Source of the DNA: a bacterium | Lineage (GTDB): Bacteria; Planctomycetota; UBA11346 | Assembly: GCA_020047915.1 (NCBI GenBank) | Contig: JAIFND010000068.1 | Span: 1-56,227, forward strand | Direction of reading: 5' to 3' | Length of the DNA stretch: 56,227 nt | Notes under the pieces: generated by a model | What the model saw: the letters and a program-made list of their open reading frames with translations, nothing else | Told to the model about the DNA's origin: nothing | Database searches by the model: none | In this document: piece after piece, positions 1,623 through 50,020 of the stretch | Layout of the letters: each line of letters opens with the position of its first letter | Numbering within the stretch: position 1 is the first letter of the stretch | Translations under genes and position numbers: made by a program

Positions 1623-3227
<1,605 letters not shown>

Positions 3228-12058: not shown

Positions 12059-12567
12059 AGTGGGTCCAGGGCCGCCCAGGCCCTGGCCGCAGCGTCAGCG
12101 AGGATCGCGCGCCGAGGGGCGGTGGGCGGATACAATGGGCGCAGCCCATCCGCCCACGGTTTCAGAGCGAAGCGATGAAACCGAGCCCCGACAAAGCGCG
12201 CGGGTCCAGGGCCGTGGAGGCGGGTCCAGGGCCGCCAAGACCCTGGCCGCAGCGCAGCGAGGATCGGCCGCCGAGCAGCGGTGGACGGATACAATGGGCG
12301 TAGCCCATCCGTCCATGGTTTTGGAGCGGAAGCGACAAAACCAAGCAGCGACAAAGGCCGGGGGGCAGGCCCGCAGGGCCGCGGGGGCGGGTCCAGGGCT
12401 TAGCCCTGGCCGCAGCGCAGCGAGGATCGCGCGCCGAGTGGCGGTGGCGGCATACAATCGGCGTAGCCGATGCCGCCACGGTTTCGGAGCGTAGCGAGGA
12501 AACCGAGCCGCGACAAAGCGGCGGGGGGCAGGCCCGCAGGGCCGTGGGGGTGAAACCCCCAAGCTAA
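12059..12567 (-). repeat. structured interspersed element (family B), three tandem copies
   Basis: Three units with core GTGGnCGGnATnGGCTnCGCCnATTGTATnCCGnCCAC on the minus strand (around 12127-12162, 12272-12307, 12442-12479); outermost copy begins at the TAG stop (12564-12566) of the 12564..13637 gene. Confidence 0.85.
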
Positions 12568-32466: not shown

Positions 32467-32683
32467 CGGGGGCGCCCGCGCCCCCGGAAGAAGTGGAGCG
32501 CGCCAGCGCGACCGGCCGCCGAGCAGCGGTGGGCGGATACAATGGGCGAAGCCCATCCGCCCACGATTTCGGAGCGTCAGCGACGAAATCGAGCTGCGAC
32601 AAAGGCCGAGGGGCAGGGCCTTTCAGGCCCGTGGGGACGAAGTCCCCAAGCTAACAGCCCGTGGGGACGAAGTCCCCAAGCTA
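32467..32683 (-). repeat. structured interspersed element (family B), single copy with duplicated terminal hairpin
   Basis: Minus strand: TAGCTTGGGGACTTCGTCCCCACGGGCTGT-TAGCTTGGGGACTTCGTCCCCACGGGCC...CTTTGTCGCAGCTCGATTTC...GAAATCGTGGGCGGATGGGCTTCGCCCATTGTATCCGCCCAC. Confidence 0.85.
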
Positions 32684-34561
32684 AGTAGCCATCCAGAGCA
32701 GCACGAAGATCTGCGCCCCGACCACGCGCATCAGCATGGTCAACGGATAGACCGTGGCGTAGGCCAGGCCGGGCAGTTCGTTGCCGGCCGTGCCGTTGGC
32801 GAAGGCGAGGGCCGGCGGGTCGGTGCACGAACCGGCCAGCACGCCCATCAGCGCGGTGTAGTTCTCCTTGAAGAACACGCGTGCGACGATGCCGACGATC
32901 AACAGCGGGATCATCGCGATGCACAGGGCGCAGACGATCCACAGCAGGCCCTGCATGCTGAAGGCGTAGGTCACGAAGCTCTGGGCCGAGAGCAGGCCGA
33001 CACAGGCGAGGAACAGGGCGATGCCGAACTCGCGCATCAGGTTGTTGGCTCCCTTGGCGACATGGAAGATGATGTGCTTGCCAAGGTGCCCCATGCTGCT
33101 GAATACCAGGGCGGCGACGATCGGGCCGCCGGCCAGGCCGAGTTTCACCGGCTGGGACAGGCCGGGGATGGGGATGGGGATCTGGCCGAGGACGATGCCG
33201 ACCGCGATGCCCAGGAACAGGCCGATGAGCTGGGGGTGATCGAGACCCGCCGAGGAGTTGCCGACCCGCTCCTCGACCCGTTTGATGCCCATTTCATCAC
33301 CGACCACCACCAGCCGGTCTGCGAAGTGGAGATCGGCATCATCATCGGCCAGCAGTTCCTTGCCGTGGCGCTTGATCCGCGTCACCGTGGCCCCGCAGGT
33401 GCGCGGGAAGTCGAGCTTGGCGATGCCGTCTCCAACGACGTGCTGATTGGTCACCACCACTTCGCGGGTAAGCAGCCGGTGGCAGACCTGGGCCTCACGG
33501 ATGTCGTCGTCGATGCGCTCGCCGACGATCTCCTGCAGGCGGGCAAGACCTTCCTTGCCGCCAACAGCATGCAGCAGGTCGCCCAGGGCGAGGCTGAAGT
33601 CGGGCTTGGGCACCAACTGCTCGTCACCACGCTGCACGCGCGACACCACCACGCCGTCACCGGCCAATGCATCGACGTGCGCCACGCTCTTGCCGATGAT
33701 GCCCGGATTGCTGACCTTGAGGTTGATGTTGGCCGCGCCCGCCGCCGCCTGGTTGGCCTTGGCGAAGGCCTCGACCTCGTCCTTGGGCCGGATGCCGAAC
33801 AGCATACGCAGGGTGATCAGCGAACCGATGATGCCGGCGATGCCGAAGGGGTAGGCGACGGCGTAGCCGGACACGGTCATACCGATCTGCTCGGCCGGGG
33901 CCTTCAGTTCCTTCAGTGTGGCCTGGGCCGCTGCCCAGCCGGGCGTGTTGGTGATCGCACCGCTCATCACGCCGACCGCGGCGGTGGGATGCTGGCCGGC
34001 GATGACCACGACCAGCGCCGTCACGCCGAGGCCGAGCAGCACCACGCTGCCGGCCATGATGTTCCAGCGCACTCCCTGGTTGCGCAGCGACTGCAGGAAG
34101 CCGGGACCGACCATCATGCCGATGCAGTACACGAAGAGCACCAGGCCGAACTCGCGGATGAACTCCAGCACCTCCTTGCGCACGTGCACCTTGTCCTCGA
34201 CCGACTTCTCGACCTTGGCGCGCACCGCAGCCTCATCGGGTGGCGGTGGGGTGACGACCGTCCCATCCGGTGCCGTCTGCGCCGCCGGTGGCGGGGCGGC
34301 CTGCAATCTGGCCATCTCGATCTGCACCTTGGTCTCGACCAAGGCATGGTGGGCCATGCCGTTAGGGCTCCACAGCGCCCACGAGTAGGCGATGGCGGCG
34401 AAGATCACCGTGGTGACCCCCAGCGACACGCCGAAGACCTTGATATGACCAAGCGCGACACCGGCGGCGATGGTGACGCCCAGGGCCACGATCCAGCCAG
34501 CCGGGGTCGCCCCGGTGACGATCTCAAGCCACATGGTCCACAACAGATCAGGCCAGTTCAT
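32681..34561 (-). CDS. AspT/YidE/YbjL duplication-family antiporter with TrkA_C-like domain
   Basis: Two membrane halves (FGLVLFVYCIGMMVGPGFLQSL ... FGIALFLACVGLLSAQSFV), TrkA_C-like FADRLVVVGDE, C-terminal ALMGVLAGSCTDPPALAFANG. Confidence 0.8.
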   Translation of the reverse strand: MNWPDLLWTMWLEIVTGATPAGWIVALGVTIAAGVALGHIKVFGVSLGVTTVIFAAIAYSWALWSPNGMAHHALVETKVQIEMARLQAAPPPAAQTAPDGTVVTPPPPDEAAVRAKVEKSVEDKVHVRKEVLEFIREFGLVLFVYCIGMMVGPGFLQSLRNQGVRWNIMAGSVVLLGLGVTALVVVIAGQHPTAAVGVMSGAITNTPGWAAAQATLKELKAPAEQIGMTVSGYAVAYPFGIAGIIGSLITLRMLFGIRPKDEVEAFAKANQAAAGAANINLKVSNPGIIGKSVAHVDALAGDGVVVSRVQRGDEQLVPKPDFSLALGDLLHAVGGKEGLARLQEIVGERIDDDIREAQVCHRLLTREVVVTNQHVVGDGIAKLDFPRTCGATVTRIKRHGKELLADDDADLHFADRLVVVGDEMGIKRVEERVGNSSAGLDHPQLIGLFLGIAVGIVLGQIPIPIPGLSQPVKLGLAGGPIVAALVFSSMGHLGKHIIFHVAKGANNLMREFGIALFLACVGLLSAQSFVTYAFSMQGLLWIVCALCIAMIPLLIVGIVARVFFKENYTALMGVLAGSCTDPPALAFANGTAGNELPGLAYATVYPLTMLMRVVGAQIFVLLWMAT

Positions 34562-34740: not shown

Positions 34741-35178
34741 TCAGGGACGGTTGACGCGGATTTCGTGCGCGAGCGTGACGCCCGCGGCGTCCTGCACCAC
34801 GACGCGCAGGTCCCACGCGCCTGGACGCGGCAAGGGGCAGAGCAACGGCGCGGCAGGATCGGCCCAGAGCATGCTGCGGTCGGCAGACACGTCATCGGGT
34901 CGATACATGCGCACCATGGCGCCCTGGGGCCGGTCCTTGCCTGGGGCCACCAGAGTCAGGGTCGCCGAGGCGCCATCGACCACGCTGTCGAGACGCCAGC
35001 CGCGATCGGCGAAGGCCGCCCGCTCGCCAGCCCGCGCATCCTCATGCGCACTGGCGGCATAGGACCGCTCCTCGACCTTCTGCGGACGCACCTTCAGCGA
35101 GGTGAAGATCAGCACCGCGTTGGCGCAGGCGATCGTCCCGACGCCAATCACTGGAGCCATCCACCAACGGAATTTCAT
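34741..35178 (-). CDS. FixH family protein
   Basis: N-terminal TM and FixH-like domain immediately downstream of ccoG. Confidence 0.75.
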   Translation of the reverse strand: MKFRWWMAPVIGVGTIACANAVLIFTSLKVRPQKVEERSYAASAHEDARAGERAAFADRGWRLDSVVDGASATLTLVAPGKDRPQGAMVRMYRPDDVSADRSMLWADPAAPLLCPLPRPGAWDLRVVVQDAAGVTLAHEIRVNRP

Positions 35179-36671
35179 GGGGCGCGCACCGCGGTCATGG
35201 CCATGCCCAGTACCGTGCCGGCTTCGTCGCGCCCTTCCAGGGCTACATCGAGGTGGCGGGTGGAGAATGATCCACGCGGAATGAAGACGATCGGGGTCGC
35301 GGTGATGCGGCCACCCGCCGGCACCGTCAGGAACTCCTGCGACATGACCACGCGTGCCTCCAGTGCATCCGGCAGATGGATGGCGACGCGCAGGTCGCGA
35401 TCACTGCGATTGACCAGCGACAGCGGCAGGGCTGCGCGCACGCAGTCGCGACCTGCCGGATCGGCTTCGCGCACCGGAACGGCGGTCTGGCGCAGCGGTG
35501 CGATCAGCAGATCCGTACGACCCTGCAGCCGGTAGATCAGCACGCCCACCAGGACCACGCTGACCACGGCATAGAGGATGGTGCGCGGGCGCAGGATCTG
35601 GCGCTTGCGCCCAGCCAGCTGCTCCTCGCTGGCATAGCGGATCAGTCCGCGCGGCTTTCCGACCTTGTCCATGATCCCGTCGCACGCATCGATGCAGGCG
35701 GCACAGTGGATGCATTCCAGCTGGTTGCCATTGCGGATGTCGATGGCGGTCGGGCAGACGCGGACGCAGAGACCACAGTCGATGCAATCGCCGTGCGACT
35801 GCGGCTGGGGGCGGGGGGCGGGGGGCGGGGGGCTGCCAGCAACGACGCCCACACCAGTTTCGGCAGTGGCCTGCGGGCTCGAAGCTCGAAGCTCGAAGCT
35901 TGAAGCTGCGCGCGCGTCAGCGCGCGCCAGGTGCCCGCGCGGTTCGCCGCGCTTGGCGTCGTAGGCGACGGTCAGCGTGTGCGAGTCGAGCATCGCCGTC
36001 TGGAAGCGGCCGTAGGGGCAGACGATGGTGCAGGTCTGGTCGCGGAACCAGCCGAAATTGAACAGGATGCAGACGAACAGGATGCCCCAGAACCCCGTCG
36101 CATAGGGGTGGGCCGCCCAATCCAGGAGGACATAAGCGTGGAAGGCATCGGCGCCGATAAAGATCGCCGTGCCGGCATTGGCCAGCCCACCGGCGATCAA
36201 CACGAAGACGAACCACATCAGCGCTGCGCGCCAGGCCGGCGTCTTGCCGGGATTGCCCGGGCCGCCGAGGATGAGGTGCTCGACCGGGCGGAAGACCATC
36301 TCGAGGAACACGTTGTGCGGGCAGAACCAGCCGCAGAAGACACGCCCGAGCAGCGCGACCGTGAGCAGCGTGCCGACGATGCCGAGCAGCGCGAGGATGA
36401 CGAAGTAGGTCAGATCCTGTGGCCAGAAGACGACACCGGCGAGGTAGAATTTGCGCGTCGCGATGTCGAGTTGGAAGGCCGGCTTGCCGCCGATCATGAC
36501 GAAGGGGATGGCGCAGTAGAAGGCGATCAGCGGGATCGCCAGGGCCGAACGCCAGCGCCGCCAGCGCCCCCAGACGATACGTGCCTCGACCCACCTGCGC
36601 CTCCCCTCCTTGTCAACGGAGGCGAGGACAGACTTGTAATCGGGCTTCTCATTGGGGGTGGTATCGGCCAT
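35175..36671 (-). CDS. ccoG: cytochrome c oxidase accessory protein CcoG/FixG
   Basis: CGWFCPHNVFLEMVFRPVEHLI, CDCxxC-type CIDCGLCVRVCPTAIDIRNGNQLECIHCAACIDACD; contains an in-frame heptad-repeat insertion. Confidence 0.93.
   Translation of the reverse strand: MADTTPNEKPDYKSVLASVDKEGRRRWVEARIVWGRWRRWRSALAIPLIAFYCAIPFVMIGGKPAFQLDIATRKFYLAGVVFWPQDLTYFVILALLGIVGTLLTVALLGRVFCGWFCPHNVFLEMVFRPVEHLILGGPGNPGKTPAWRAALMWFVFVLIAGGLANAGTAIFIGADAFHAYVLLDWAAHPYATGFWGILFVCILFNFGWFRDQTCTIVCPYGRFQTAMLDSHTLTVAYDAKRGEPRGHLARADARAASSFELRASSPQATAETGVGVVAGSPPPPAPRPQPQSHGDCIDCGLCVRVCPTAIDIRNGNQLECIHCAACIDACDGIMDKVGKPRGLIRYASEEQLAGRKRQILRPRTILYAVVSVVLVGVLIYRLQGRTDLLIAPLRQTAVPVREADPAGRDCVRAALPLSLVNRSDRDLRVAIHLPDALEARVVMSQEFLTVPAGGRITATPIVFIPRGSFSTRHLDVALEGRDEAGTVLGMAMTAVRAP
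35806..35907. repeat. two heptanucleotide arrays inside ccoG (GGGGGGC and GCTCGAA)
   Basis: gggggcggggggcggggggcggggggc (35806-35834) and GCTCGAA GCTCGAA GCTCGAA GCTTGAA GCT (35877-35907), in frame in ccoG. Confidence 0.85.
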
Positions 36672-36673
36672 GG

Positions 36674-37282
36674 TCACCAGTCGATCGGGGTTTCCTTCTC
36701 ATCCGCAGCCGGTGGCTTGGCCGGATTGGCCTTGAGCCCCTCGCGGTTCATCGACACGACATACACCGCCAGATTGCGCACCGCCTCGGTGCCGAGGTTG
36801 GCATATGGCGCCATGCCCTTGCCCGGACGGCCGCCCTTTTCGAGTACCGTCGTGATCCCGGTCATGGTCGGCTCGACCAGCCAGTGGCGGTCGCGCAGAT
36901 TCGGTCCGACGCCGCCCAGGCCCTCGGCACCATGGCAGGCGACGCACAACTGGGCGTAGGTCTGCTTGCCCGCCGCGATGCGCGCCGGATCGCTGGCCAA
37001 AACGCGCAGCCCCGCCTCGTCGAGGGCGGTCCCGGCGTTCAACGAGGCGCGCTCGGCGGCCAGCGCAGCAAGATCCTCTTTGAGTCTATCCGGCCCGACC
37101 TTGCCAGGCCCACCGTGGTAGAACGGGATGTACCAGATCGCCCAGATGATCGTGGCATAGAACAGCCACAGCCACCACTTGGGCAGGTTGTTGTCGTATT
37201 CCTGGATGCCGTCGAAGGCGTGCCCGCCATCCTTCAACTGGTCCGGCTTGTGCTCGGTGCCGGTAGGCGCGGGGTCAGACAT
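36674..37282 (-). CDS. ccoP: cbb3-type cytochrome c oxidase subunit III, mono-haem
   Basis: GIQEYDNNLPKWWLWLFYATIIWAIWYIPFYH then a single CVACH motif. Confidence 0.88.
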   Translation of the reverse strand: MSDPAPTGTEHKPDQLKDGGHAFDGIQEYDNNLPKWWLWLFYATIIWAIWYIPFYHGGPGKVGPDRLKEDLAALAAERASLNAGTALDEAGLRVLASDPARIAAGKQTYAQLCVACHGAEGLGGVGPNLRDRHWLVEPTMTGITTVLEKGGRPGKGMAPYANLGTEAVRNLAVYVVSMNREGLKANPAKPPAADEKETPIDW

Positions 37283-37439
37283 GACGGTCATCCTCGAGGG
37301 GCAGATGCTCCATGCGTTCGATGTGGCCGCGCCGACGGTCACTGGCGACGTACCAGACGATCAGGGCGAACAAGCCGACGAAGCCGAGCATGCCGATCAC
37401 AGCCCACGGGTTCGCGTTGATGAATACTTCGCGGATCAC
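37275..37439 (-). CDS. CcoQ/FixQ-like small membrane protein (GTG start; absent from ORF track)
   Basis: MIREVFINANPWAVIGMLGFVGLFALIVWYVASDRRRGHIERMEHLPLEDDRHV; translationally coupled GTGA overlap with the ccoNO stop. Confidence 0.75.
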   Translation of the reverse strand: MIREVFINANPWAVIGMLGFVGLFALIVWYVASDRRRGHIERMEHLPLEDDRHV

Positions 37440-39658
37440 TTGGCCGCTCCCTTCTTCAAATCGGTGCCCAGGCGCTGCAGGTAGGCGATCATGGCAATGA
37501 TTTCGCTGTCGTCCTTGACCCGGGCACGATCGACCGGATCGGTAAGCTGGGTACGCAGTTCGTCTGCGACCTGCTTGGCCTGGGCCTTGGCCGTGCTGAC
37601 CGGATCCTTCACCACCTCGCGATCATAGGGCGTGTACAGCGGCGGCATCGCCAGGACACCGATCTTGGATGGCAGAGCCGCGTAGTCGGTCTCCCAGGTA
37701 TAGAGCCATGGGTAGCGCGGCATGGTGCTGCCCTGGGCCATGGAGGTGGGATCCTCCATGTGCGCCCAGTGCCAGCTGTGCGGACGCAGTCCGCCCTCGC
37801 GCCACAGGTCGGGCCCGGTGCGCTTGCTGCCCCAGACGAAGGGCCGGTCGTAGATCGTCTCGCCGGCGCGGGTGTAGTCGCCATAGCGCTCGACCTCGGC
37901 GCGCAGGGTACGCACCATCTGCGTGTGGCAGGTGTTGCAGCCTTCGCGTATGTAGATGTCGCGTCCGGCCAGTTCCAGTGGGGTATAGGGTTTGACGCTG
38001 GCGATCTTCGGGGTCACCGCACCCTGGATGAGCTGCGGCACGATCTCGCAGAACCCGCCGATCACCAGGCTGATCGTGATCAGCACGATCATGGTGGTCG
38101 GCCAGCGCTCGACCAGGCTGTGCAGGGCGTTGGTCTTGGCACGCGCGGTCGGCTGGTCGAGGGCGGCGTCGATGTGCTTGCCCACCTCGACATCGGGGAT
38201 GAGGCGCGGCACCTGCACGGTGGTGGTCTCTAGGCCACCCGGGGCCTTGCGGATGGTCATGATGATGTTGTAGATGCACAGGAAGATGCCTGCCATGTAG
38301 AGCAGGCCGGCGGTGGCGCGCAGCCAGTAGAACGGGATCGTGGTACGCACGATCTCCATCCAGTCGGTGTACATCAGGCGCGCCTCGTCGTTGAACTGCA
38401 GGGTCATCAGGCCCTGGGCGATGCCGGCGATCCACAGCGCGACCATGTAGAGGAAGATGGCGACCGTGGCGGTCCAGAAATGCAGGTTGGCGAGTCCGGT
38501 CGAGTGCAGCGTGGTCTTGTACAGTTTGGGGATCAGCCAGTAGGCCAGGGCGAAGGCGATCAGACCGTTCCAGCCCATGGCCCCCCCATGGACATGGCCG
38601 ATGGTCCATTCGCTGTTGTGCGACAGGGCGTTGACCGAGCGCAGCGAGAGCAGCGGACCCTCGAAGGTGGCCATGCCGTAGAAGGTGACGGCGGCGACCC
38701 AGAACTTCAGCACCGGATCCTGGCGCACCCGGTCCCACGCCCCGCGCAGGGTCAAGAGGCCGTTGATCATGCCACCCCAGCTGGGCGCCAGCAGCATGAT
38801 CGAGAAGGTCACGCCCAGGGTCTGCGCCCACTCCGGCGTGGCCTGGTTGAGCAAGTGGTGCGGGCCGGACCAGATGTAGAGGAAGATCAGCGACCAGAAA
38901 TGGATGATCGACAGGCGGTAGGAGTAGACCGGACGCTCGGCCGCCTTGGGCAGGTAGTAGTACATCAGGCCGAGGAACGGCGTGGTCAGGAAGAAGGCCA
39001 CCGCGTTATGGCCGTACCACCACTGCACCAGCGCGTCCTGCACGCCGCTGAACACGCTGTAGGAGTGCGTGAGGCTGGTGGGAATCGAGAGCGAATTGAC
39101 GACATGCAGCATCGCCACGCCGATCTGGGTGGCGAGCAGGAACCAGATCGCGACGTAGAGGTGGCGTTCACGGCGCACCATGATGGTTGCCACGGTGTTG
39201 ACCGTCCACGCCACCCAGACCAGGGCGATGGCGATGTCGATCGGCCAGATCAGTTCGGCGTATTCCTTGCCCGAGGTCCAGCCCAAAGGCAGCGAAATGG
39301 CGGCCGCGGCGATGATCGCCTGCCAGCCGAAGAAGTGGAACTTGCTGAGGGCATCAGACCACATGCGCGCCTTCAGCAGGCGTTGGGTCGCGTAATAAAA
39401 GCCGGCGAAGATGGCGTTGCCGGCGAAGGCGAAGATCACCGCGTTGGTGTGCAGCGGACGCAGGCGGCCATAGGTCGTCCACGGCAGGTCGAGATTGGCG
39501 CCCGGGATGGCCAGCTGAACGGCCAGGATCACACCGACCAGCAGGCCGACCACGCCGAAGATGAGCGAGGCCCAGATGAACCATAGGACGATGCGATCGT
39601 CGTAGGTGACGGTATCGAGGTCCGCCTCGCGCGGCGGAGGCATGGGAGAGTCGGTCAT
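37436..39658 (-). CDS. fused cbb3-type cytochrome c oxidase subunits I+II (CcoNO)
   Basis: CcoN part (NEWTIGHVHGGAMGWNG-type catalytic core) continuous with CcoO part (YIREGCNTCHTQMVRTLRAEVERYG...). Confidence 0.93.
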   Translation of the reverse strand: MTDSPMPPPREADLDTVTYDDRIVLWFIWASLIFGVVGLLVGVILAVQLAIPGANLDLPWTTYGRLRPLHTNAVIFAFAGNAIFAGFYYATQRLLKARMWSDALSKFHFFGWQAIIAAAAISLPLGWTSGKEYAELIWPIDIAIALVWVAWTVNTVATIMVRRERHLYVAIWFLLATQIGVAMLHVVNSLSIPTSLTHSYSVFSGVQDALVQWWYGHNAVAFFLTTPFLGLMYYYLPKAAERPVYSYRLSIIHFWSLIFLYIWSGPHHLLNQATPEWAQTLGVTFSIMLLAPSWGGMINGLLTLRGAWDRVRQDPVLKFWVAAVTFYGMATFEGPLLSLRSVNALSHNSEWTIGHVHGGAMGWNGLIAFALAYWLIPKLYKTTLHSTGLANLHFWTATVAIFLYMVALWIAGIAQGLMTLQFNDEARLMYTDWMEIVRTTIPFYWLRATAGLLYMAGIFLCIYNIIMTIRKAPGGLETTTVQVPRLIPDVEVGKHIDAALDQPTARAKTNALHSLVERWPTTMIVLITISLVIGGFCEIVPQLIQGAVTPKIASVKPYTPLELAGRDIYIREGCNTCHTQMVRTLRAEVERYGDYTRAGETIYDRPFVWGSKRTGPDLWREGGLRPHSWHWAHMEDPTSMAQGSTMPRYPWLYTWETDYAALPSKIGVLAMPPLYTPYDREVVKDPVSTAKAQAKQVADELRTQLTDPVDRARVKDDSEIIAMIAYLQRLGTDLKKGAAK

Positions 39659-39858
39659 GGATGCTTCTGGGCGGGGGGCAGGGGGCGGGGGGCGGGGGGC
39701 AGGTCGTCGGCCAGCATGCGCGCCGGGGGGGTATCCAGGTCGTCGAGCTGGCCGCTGCGGACCAGCGCGATGAGCGCGGCGACCGCGACGACGAACAATG
39801 CCAGACCGACGCCTGTAAGCAGATAGAGCATGGCTGAGGCTGCGATGCTTATGCCCAT
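39655..39858 (-). CDS. ccoS: cbb3-type oxidase assembly protein CcoS
   Basis: MGISIAASAMLYLLTGVGLALFVVAVAALIALVRSGQLDDLDTPPARMLADD...; tail encoded by a GGCGGGG heptad array. Confidence 0.75.
   Translation of the reverse strand: MGISIAASAMLYLLTGVGLALFVVAVAALIALVRSGQLDDLDTPPARMLADDLPPAPRPLPPAQKHP
39669..39703. repeat. heptanucleotide array (GGCGGGG) in 3' end of ccoS
   Basis: GGCGGGG GGCAGGG GGCGGGG GGCGGGG GGCAGG. Confidence 0.75.
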
Positions 39859-49799: not shown

Positions 49800-49802
49800 G
49801 CA

Positions 49803-50020
49803 AGGCGGAAGGCGGAAGGCGGAAGGCGGAAGGCGGAAGGCGGAAGGCGGAAGGCGGAAGGCGGAAGGCGGAAGGCGGAAGATTCGCCAGGTCGCGCGCA
49901 CGGTAGCAAACGACAAGCACGCCCGTCTGCTGCCCGATCGGGCACTTTGATCCGGCTGGCGGATGACCTCCTGCCAGAGCCCCAGCATCTCTTCCGCCTT
50001 CCGCCTTCCGCCTTCCGCCT
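49803..50020. repeat. heptanucleotide inverted-arm element (GGCGGAA)
   Basis: About 11 copies of GGCGGAA at 49803-49881; reverse-complement CTTCCGC copies at 49991-50020. Confidence 0.9.

Follow-up and report, generated by a model that had tools for sequence, protein, structure and literature searches.

A heptad-armed repeat element read in frame in the CcoG linker of a planctomycete

Heptameric repeats and the family in this genome

The heptameric repeats of Xanthomonas (GGGNATC) and Nostoc (GGGGA(T/C)T) show a preference for four units (Rehm et al. 2015, PMC4692102). Those of Xanthomonas number nearly 190 per genome and lie mostly between genes, at gene ends; 7 to 11% are intragenic, close convergent pairs number 70 in Xcc and 75 in Xac, and 83% of the positions are common to Xcc and Xac (PMC4692102). 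The GGGACCG elements of Geobacter metallireducens consist of four tandem heptanucleotides and occur in 49 dispersed copies inside and between genes; the accessible part of that report (PMC2700814) describes one heptad family with a proposed regulatory RNA role and reports no convergent hybrid pairs. In marine Beggiatoaceae, a single heptad (TAACTGA, in direct repeats of 2 to 6 copies) is found mostly just 5' of start codons and mostly directed toward them, and the repeats are one-armed (1 inverted repeat per 170 sets) (PMC4679880). The phase-variable simple sequence repeats (SSRs) of Haemophilus influenzae also include 7-nucleotide (nt) units. These tracts commonly hold at least 13 units, vary between strains, and shift the reading frame upon a one-unit change within an open reading frame (ORF) (PMC2651432). 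For Planctomycetota, a limited literature search turned up no paper on heptameric repeats, a weak indication that none exists.

Here, we describe an element with two heptad arms inside ccoG of a planctomycete (Planctomycetota; UBA11346). The gene lies in a 56,227-nt stretch (assembly GCA_020047915.1, contig JAIFND010000068.1), analyzed as a whole and referred to below as the window. Among the systems above, the closest match is the convergent heptameric repeat of Xanthomonas and Nostoc, and the ccoG element is of this kind, with features of its own. Shared with the Xanthomonas and Nostoc repeats are the 7-nt unit, the four-unit preference, convergent pairs, location at gene ends, and an intragenic minority. 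The repeats here differ in that several unrelated heptads coexist, some of them without G-tracts, in that arms can be hybrid and inner junctions carry CCGCAG, and in that most array positions are not common to two congeners (in contrast to the 83% shared by Xcc and Xac). The heptads do not match GGGNATC or GGGGAYT; the element therefore works like a Xanthomonas or Nostoc repeat without belonging to the GGGNATC family. The tandem heptanucleotides inside and between genes recall Geobacter, and the proximity to start codons recalls Beggiatoaceae. As in Haemophilus, a one-unit change in an ORF shifts the frame, but each ccoG arm has just 4.4 units, some of them mutated.

The genome bin (3.97 Mb, 248 contigs, 79.8% complete) was surveyed for arrays over 797 kb, comprising the window and 60 other stretches; this sample is about 20% of the genome and was chosen by contig number, i.e., nonrandomly. 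We found 163 period-7 arrays. An order-2 Markov control contained 3, and periods other than multiples of 3 or 7 gave 0 to 9 arrays each in the same 797 kb, which places the heptad arrays beyond chance. By simple scaling, the whole genome would hold about 800 arrays. Array length peaked at 31 to 32 nt (63 of 163), equal to 4.4 to 4.6 units. The main units were AAGGCGG, AACGCCG, AAGCTCN, AGCCTCC, and AACCCCT, with CCCCCCG also coexisting.

Most arrays (104 of 163) had an inverted partner less than 200 nt away. Read on the same strand, a G-rich arm was followed by a C-rich arm in 54 pairs, with the reverse order in 1; in the congener G003, the counts were 7 and 0. An ATG was present at offsets 0 to 20 outside the C-rich arm in 88 cases versus about 37 expected, and CCGCAG occurred at 24 of 146 inner junctions versus 1 of 146 outer junctions (about 1.5 expected). 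The cores of the AAGGCGG and AACGCCG families were partly alike between copies, as judged by eye. We propose that a typical element would comprise a G-rich arm of about 31 nt (4.4 to 4.6 units), a core of 30 to 145 nt that often begins with CCGCAG, and a convergent C-rich arm of about 31 nt. Such elements would build up between genes, beside gene ends and start codons.

Several arrays stood apart from this pattern. AAGGCGG arms had grown to 11 to 12 nearly perfect units at positions 49802 to 49881 of the window and 2885 to 3073 of stretch L086, and these are the sample's best candidates for unstable copy number. The window also contains three 163-nt units in tandem with an 82% match (12062 to 12550) and two perfect copies (1.9) of the 30-nt unit GCCCGTGGGGACGAAGTCCCCAAGCTAACA (32627 to 32684). 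In another genus of the taxonomic family, a convergent pair of the CCGGGGT/GACTCCG type (L066, 12644 to 12750) indicates that the architecture is wider than the source genus.

No target site duplications were detected around 58 elements (flank direct-repeat score of 5.42 versus 5.41 for shuffled pairs). Two near-empty sites at overlapping stop and start codons (L107 versus L053 and L115 versus L174) resembled duplications, which are explicable by retention of both the stop and the start. A Y1/RAYT transposase is an unlikely driver: the genome has five Y1 genes, one of them with a heptad array within 1.5 kb. The terminal inverted repeats of MITEs are absent from the ccoG copy, whose arms belong to different families, whereas other copies do have inverted arms.

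The element in ccoG and copies in other genes

CcoG is known as the cupric reductase that supplies the assembly of cbb3 oxidase, a process that is defective in mutants without CcoG (PMC8456105, citing Marckmann et al. 2019). The window's ccoG (35175 to 36677, minus strand; 500 amino acids [aa]) was identified from its ORF, Pfam matches to Fer4_18 and Fer4_5, and alignment with relatives. It starts with GTG and runs without an internal stop through both heptad arrays, and the linker between PRG and GDCIDC reads HLARADARAASSFELRASSPQATAETGVGVVAGSPPPPAPRPQPQSH. ORF calling and array detection thus reproduced exactly the open frame and the linker sequence given in the initial annotation. That annotation had assigned 35800 to 35940 to the insertion; the element itself occupies 35803 to 35907, and the remainder is ordinary linker and flanking coding sequence.

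Delimited by its arrays, by comparison with relatives, and by its absence from the congener G002, the element measures 105 nt, or 35 codons. Its plus-strand sequence is (GGGGGCG)4.4, then 43 nt with CTGCGG as the last six, then (GCTCGAA)4.4; this is the convergent order of the family, with the G-rich arm first. The G-rich arm (35803 to 35833, plus strand, 31 nt) was detected as an array of GGCTGGG plus GGGCGGG units in 4.4 copies and reads like PPPPAPRPQP on the ccoG strand. A pattern search located in it four G-tracts of 5 to 6 G each (35807 to 35832, plus strand), a potential G-quadruplex on the ccoG template strand; the GCTCGAA arm has none. The 43-nt core (35834 to 35876) is unique in the genome except for its last nucleotides, which form the inner junction motif CTGCGG (35871 to 35876, plus strand; CCGCAG on the other strand), common to several heptad families in the junction counts. 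The C-rich arm (35877 to 35907, plus strand, 31 nt) belongs to the AAGCTCN family, as judged from the arrays and the genome matches. Each arm carries a point-mutated unit. Unlike the arms of most paired family members, the two come from different heptad families and are not mutually complementary.

The GGGGGCG arm had 12 exact 24-nt matches in its own genome and 0 in the 20 other relatives searched, and the C-rich arm had 157 three-unit matches in its own genome. A query made of the junction and the C-rich arm returned 42 other genome matches that started at query positions of at least 19, most of them at 34 to 45; they cover mainly the arm, and the 43-nt core itself is unique. The same combination of GGGGGCG, CTGCGG, and AAGCTC recurs in L132, upstream of an ispF-like gene (named from sequence reading). 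A search for known RNA families at the ccoG element gave none at the gathering threshold. The heptad arrays are not peculiar to ccoG; this copy, with its hybrid arms, belongs to a repeat family found throughout the genome, which appears to favor intergenic positions close to start codons.

Since 7 and 3 have no common factor, an array of at least three units gives the identical seven codons in every frame, and on a given strand a heptad therefore leaves either every frame open or every frame blocked. Paired elements that would be both open and a multiple of 3 made up about 15% over six frames (46 of 312). In the sampled genome, the variable base in GAGCTTnGAGCTT was A in 21, T in 20, G in 15, and C in 2 cases. 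The ccoG copy has C; its GCTTCGA variant is the rarest (2 of 58) yet stop-free. The commonest bases, A and T, account for 41 of 58 and bring in TAG or TGA on the same strand.

Both the Fer4_5 membrane part and the Fer4_18 dicluster domain were found by Pfam in the window's CcoG, and alignment with relatives placed invariant cysteines at positions 112, 116, 213, 217, 295, 298, 301, 305, 319, 322, 325, and 329. The Fer4_18 match falls into two stretches here and one in the congeners G003 and G002, so the element splits the domain between its two cluster-binding parts. The distance from PRG to GDC is 47 aa, compared with 30 aa in G003, 13 aa in G002, and about 7 to 25 aa in more distant relatives; one of the relatives, G017, has an Ala/Thr/Gly linker of about 20 to 25 aa that is similar in composition to that of the window. 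Without the 35 codons, the window's linker would be 12 aa, near that of G002. An AlphaFold model built on an 11-sequence alignment had a mean pLDDT of 73.1, with values below 50 at residues 245 to 292, approximately the linker; a sequence search for a solved structure of a CcoG relative found none. Sequence and model support an insert that would be translated in frame and tolerated, with the CcoG domains predicted to be intact on either side. The earlier expectation of a normally short linker and a protein-tolerated insertion was therefore borne out. Its proposed counterevidence, close homologues with an unrelated long linker, was half found, in G003 with its 30-aa linker of a different heptad.

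A second GGGGGCG-type array of the cco operon (39669 to 39700, plus strand) lies in the tail of ccoS, about 11 nt before the start of ccoNO. The operon is ordered ccoS, ccoNO, ccoP, and ccoG, with ccoN and ccoO fused into a single ORF of 740 aa (37436 to 39658, minus strand; identified by sequence reading rather than by a family search). The 58-aa CcoS (FixS family; 39655 to 39831, minus strand) matches Pfam FixS over residues 1 to 43, and its C-terminal tail, LPPAPRPLPPAQKHP, is by translation largely heptad array.

Coding status beyond the named cases was judged from base composition or Pfam. Six of the eight GGGGGCG-type arms inspected were in coding sequence by sequence or Pfam reading. 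One adds about a dozen residues, in frame, inside the head domain of a CCA-adding enzyme (L125), another is at the end of a helicase-like ORF (L129), and another lies within a proline-rich stretch of L130. In the CCA-adding enzyme gene (L125, 1499 to 2713), a GGGGGCG arm stands at the start and a C-rich arm is read in frame within the head domain (SAPPAPRPPPPAGA); the two are convergent, with about 220 nt of ordinary coding sequence between them, and arms may therefore arise singly. In a base-composition scan of 88 elements, ccoG alone showed strong coding signal on either side of the element in a single open frame, which suggests that gene entry is rare for the family as a whole.

Array turnover between congeners

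The genome of G003, of the same genus and with a CcoG 70% identical, contained 69 arrays in 1.3 Mb, mainly AGCGGCC, AACCACG, and ACCAGCG. Its ccoG linker holds about ten ACCAGCG/AGCGGCC-type units, and its CcoS tail also has its own heptads; G002 has heptads in neither place. Three array positions of the cco region are common to the source genome and G003: the ccoG linker, the ccoS tail, and upstream of ccoS. Among 239 orthologous gene edges, arrays were present in both genomes at 6, in the source genome only at 20, in G003 only at 13, and in neither at 200 (odds ratio of 4.6, P = 0.009, with some double counting). Array positions are therefore subject to fast turnover with a mild excess of shared positions, which may reflect tolerant sites. 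A general conservation of positions between the congeners was rejected, as only the 6 edges have arrays in both. At one locus (L119 in the source genome, L176 in G003), the heptad type is also the same, which points to inheritance at that locus. These arrays, near position 18081 of L119, are of the G003 type (AGCGGCC), which suggests an older heptad set shared by both genomes.

Origin and possible roles of the insert

The insert probably belongs to a large family of heptad-armed elements, specific to this species, and landed as one copy in the CcoG linker, where it is most likely neutral. A hybrid-arm copy (GGGGGCG, CTGCGG, and GCTCGAA) would have entered CcoG between its two iron-sulfur cluster stretches, in a linker whose length already varied. 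We propose that it survived because its 105 nt of stop-free heptad variants could be read as a disordered Ala/Pro-rich loop. The number of units in ccoG would be set by the usual arm length of the family and not by switching. We infer that the element was inserted as a unit, is neutral for CcoG, and does not switch. Counting for insertion are the 31- to 32-nt peak, the polarity, the ATG and CCGCAG enrichment, the L132 copy, and the 42 matches, as well as the short linker of G002, the stop-free variant, the tolerance seen in L125, and the low pLDDT at residues 245 to 292. Counting against it, the ccoG arms are not complementary, the 105-nt unit was not seen whole elsewhere (its core being unique), arms may arise singly, and the sharing with G003 in both ccoG and ccoS exceeds what random insertion would easily lead one to expect.

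Alternatively, the arms may have grown in place by slippage from two short heptad seeds in a longer original linker, of which the core would be the remnant. The unique core, the longer linker of G017 with its like composition, and the L125 arms bracketing real coding sequence are consistent with this, and polymerase slippage has been proposed as the cause of heptad abundance (PMC4679880). However, the arms alone add 62 nt, which is not a multiple of 3, whereas 105 nt is; the linker without the 35 codons fits that of G002 (12 versus 13 aa); the C-rich arm including its CTGCGG junction matches the genome-wide family; and the narrow length peak is unlike free slippage. We regard growth in place as unlikely but worth serious consideration. 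We are somewhat more doubtful that array sites are kept while one heptad gives way to another, as the ccoG linkers, ccoS tails, and ccoS upstream regions of the congeners might suggest. If true, arrays at persistent sites would be rewritten in situ by a templated or conversion process and not inserted anew. An assembly artefact, i.e., a collapsed or misjoined repeat, is barely credible. Several contigs of these genome bins start or end in heptad arrays, which shows that arrays do disturb assembly, but the insert is flanked by the two halves of one ccoG, in their proper order and reading frame, and this is the single full-length ccoG that the genome yielded. The 31-nt arms and the 105-nt insert fit within one typical short read, and the independently assembled G003 has heptads in the same linker.

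The initial annotation had suggested that changes in copy number cause phase variation of cbb3 assembly. Its arithmetic holds: net changes of three units keep the frame and restore CcoG, while one or two units more or fewer would give a product of 342 to 427 aa without the dicluster domain. As read from the sequence, switching would be possible in principle, which does not imply that it occurs. Heptad SSRs of Haemophilus can phase-vary genes, one of them inside an ORF (PMC2651432), and the AAGGCGG arms of 11 to 12 near-perfect units (49802 to 49881 and L086) indicate that slippage occurs in this genome. The ccoG arms, however, are of the modal array length, which is no different where no reading frame is at stake, most arrays apparently lying between genes, and both are short and interrupted by mismatched units; the hmw1a and hmw2a tracts of Haemophilus have 13 to 38 units (PMC2651432). 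Heptad arrays are spread genome-wide and are not linked to surface or adaptive genes, and phase variation by the Xanthomonas repeats was judged unlikely by their authors (PMC4692102). A contingency locus at ccoG is therefore improbable, and the proposed phase variation is not supported. Even less probable is a retained regulatory element, in which the G-quadruplex-capable arm or the element RNA would tune transcription or translation of ccoG and downstream genes. It would accord with the four tracts of 5 to 6 G on the template strand, with the position of arms next to start codons genome-wide, and with similar Xanthomonas repeats, mostly transcribed, that form G-quadruplexes in vitro (PMC4692102). 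The ccoG copy nevertheless lies in the middle of the gene, and the congener G002 does without it. Arms of GCTCGAA and GTTCGGC keep four units without G-tracts, so G-quadruplex formation cannot be the common reason for this length and was rejected as its cause.

The ccoG case shows a route by which intergenic repeats can become part of conserved proteins without breaking the reading frame. With it, the range of convergent heptad repeats, which have received little study, comes to include Planctomycetota, where several heptads coexist in one genome and congeners use different sets.
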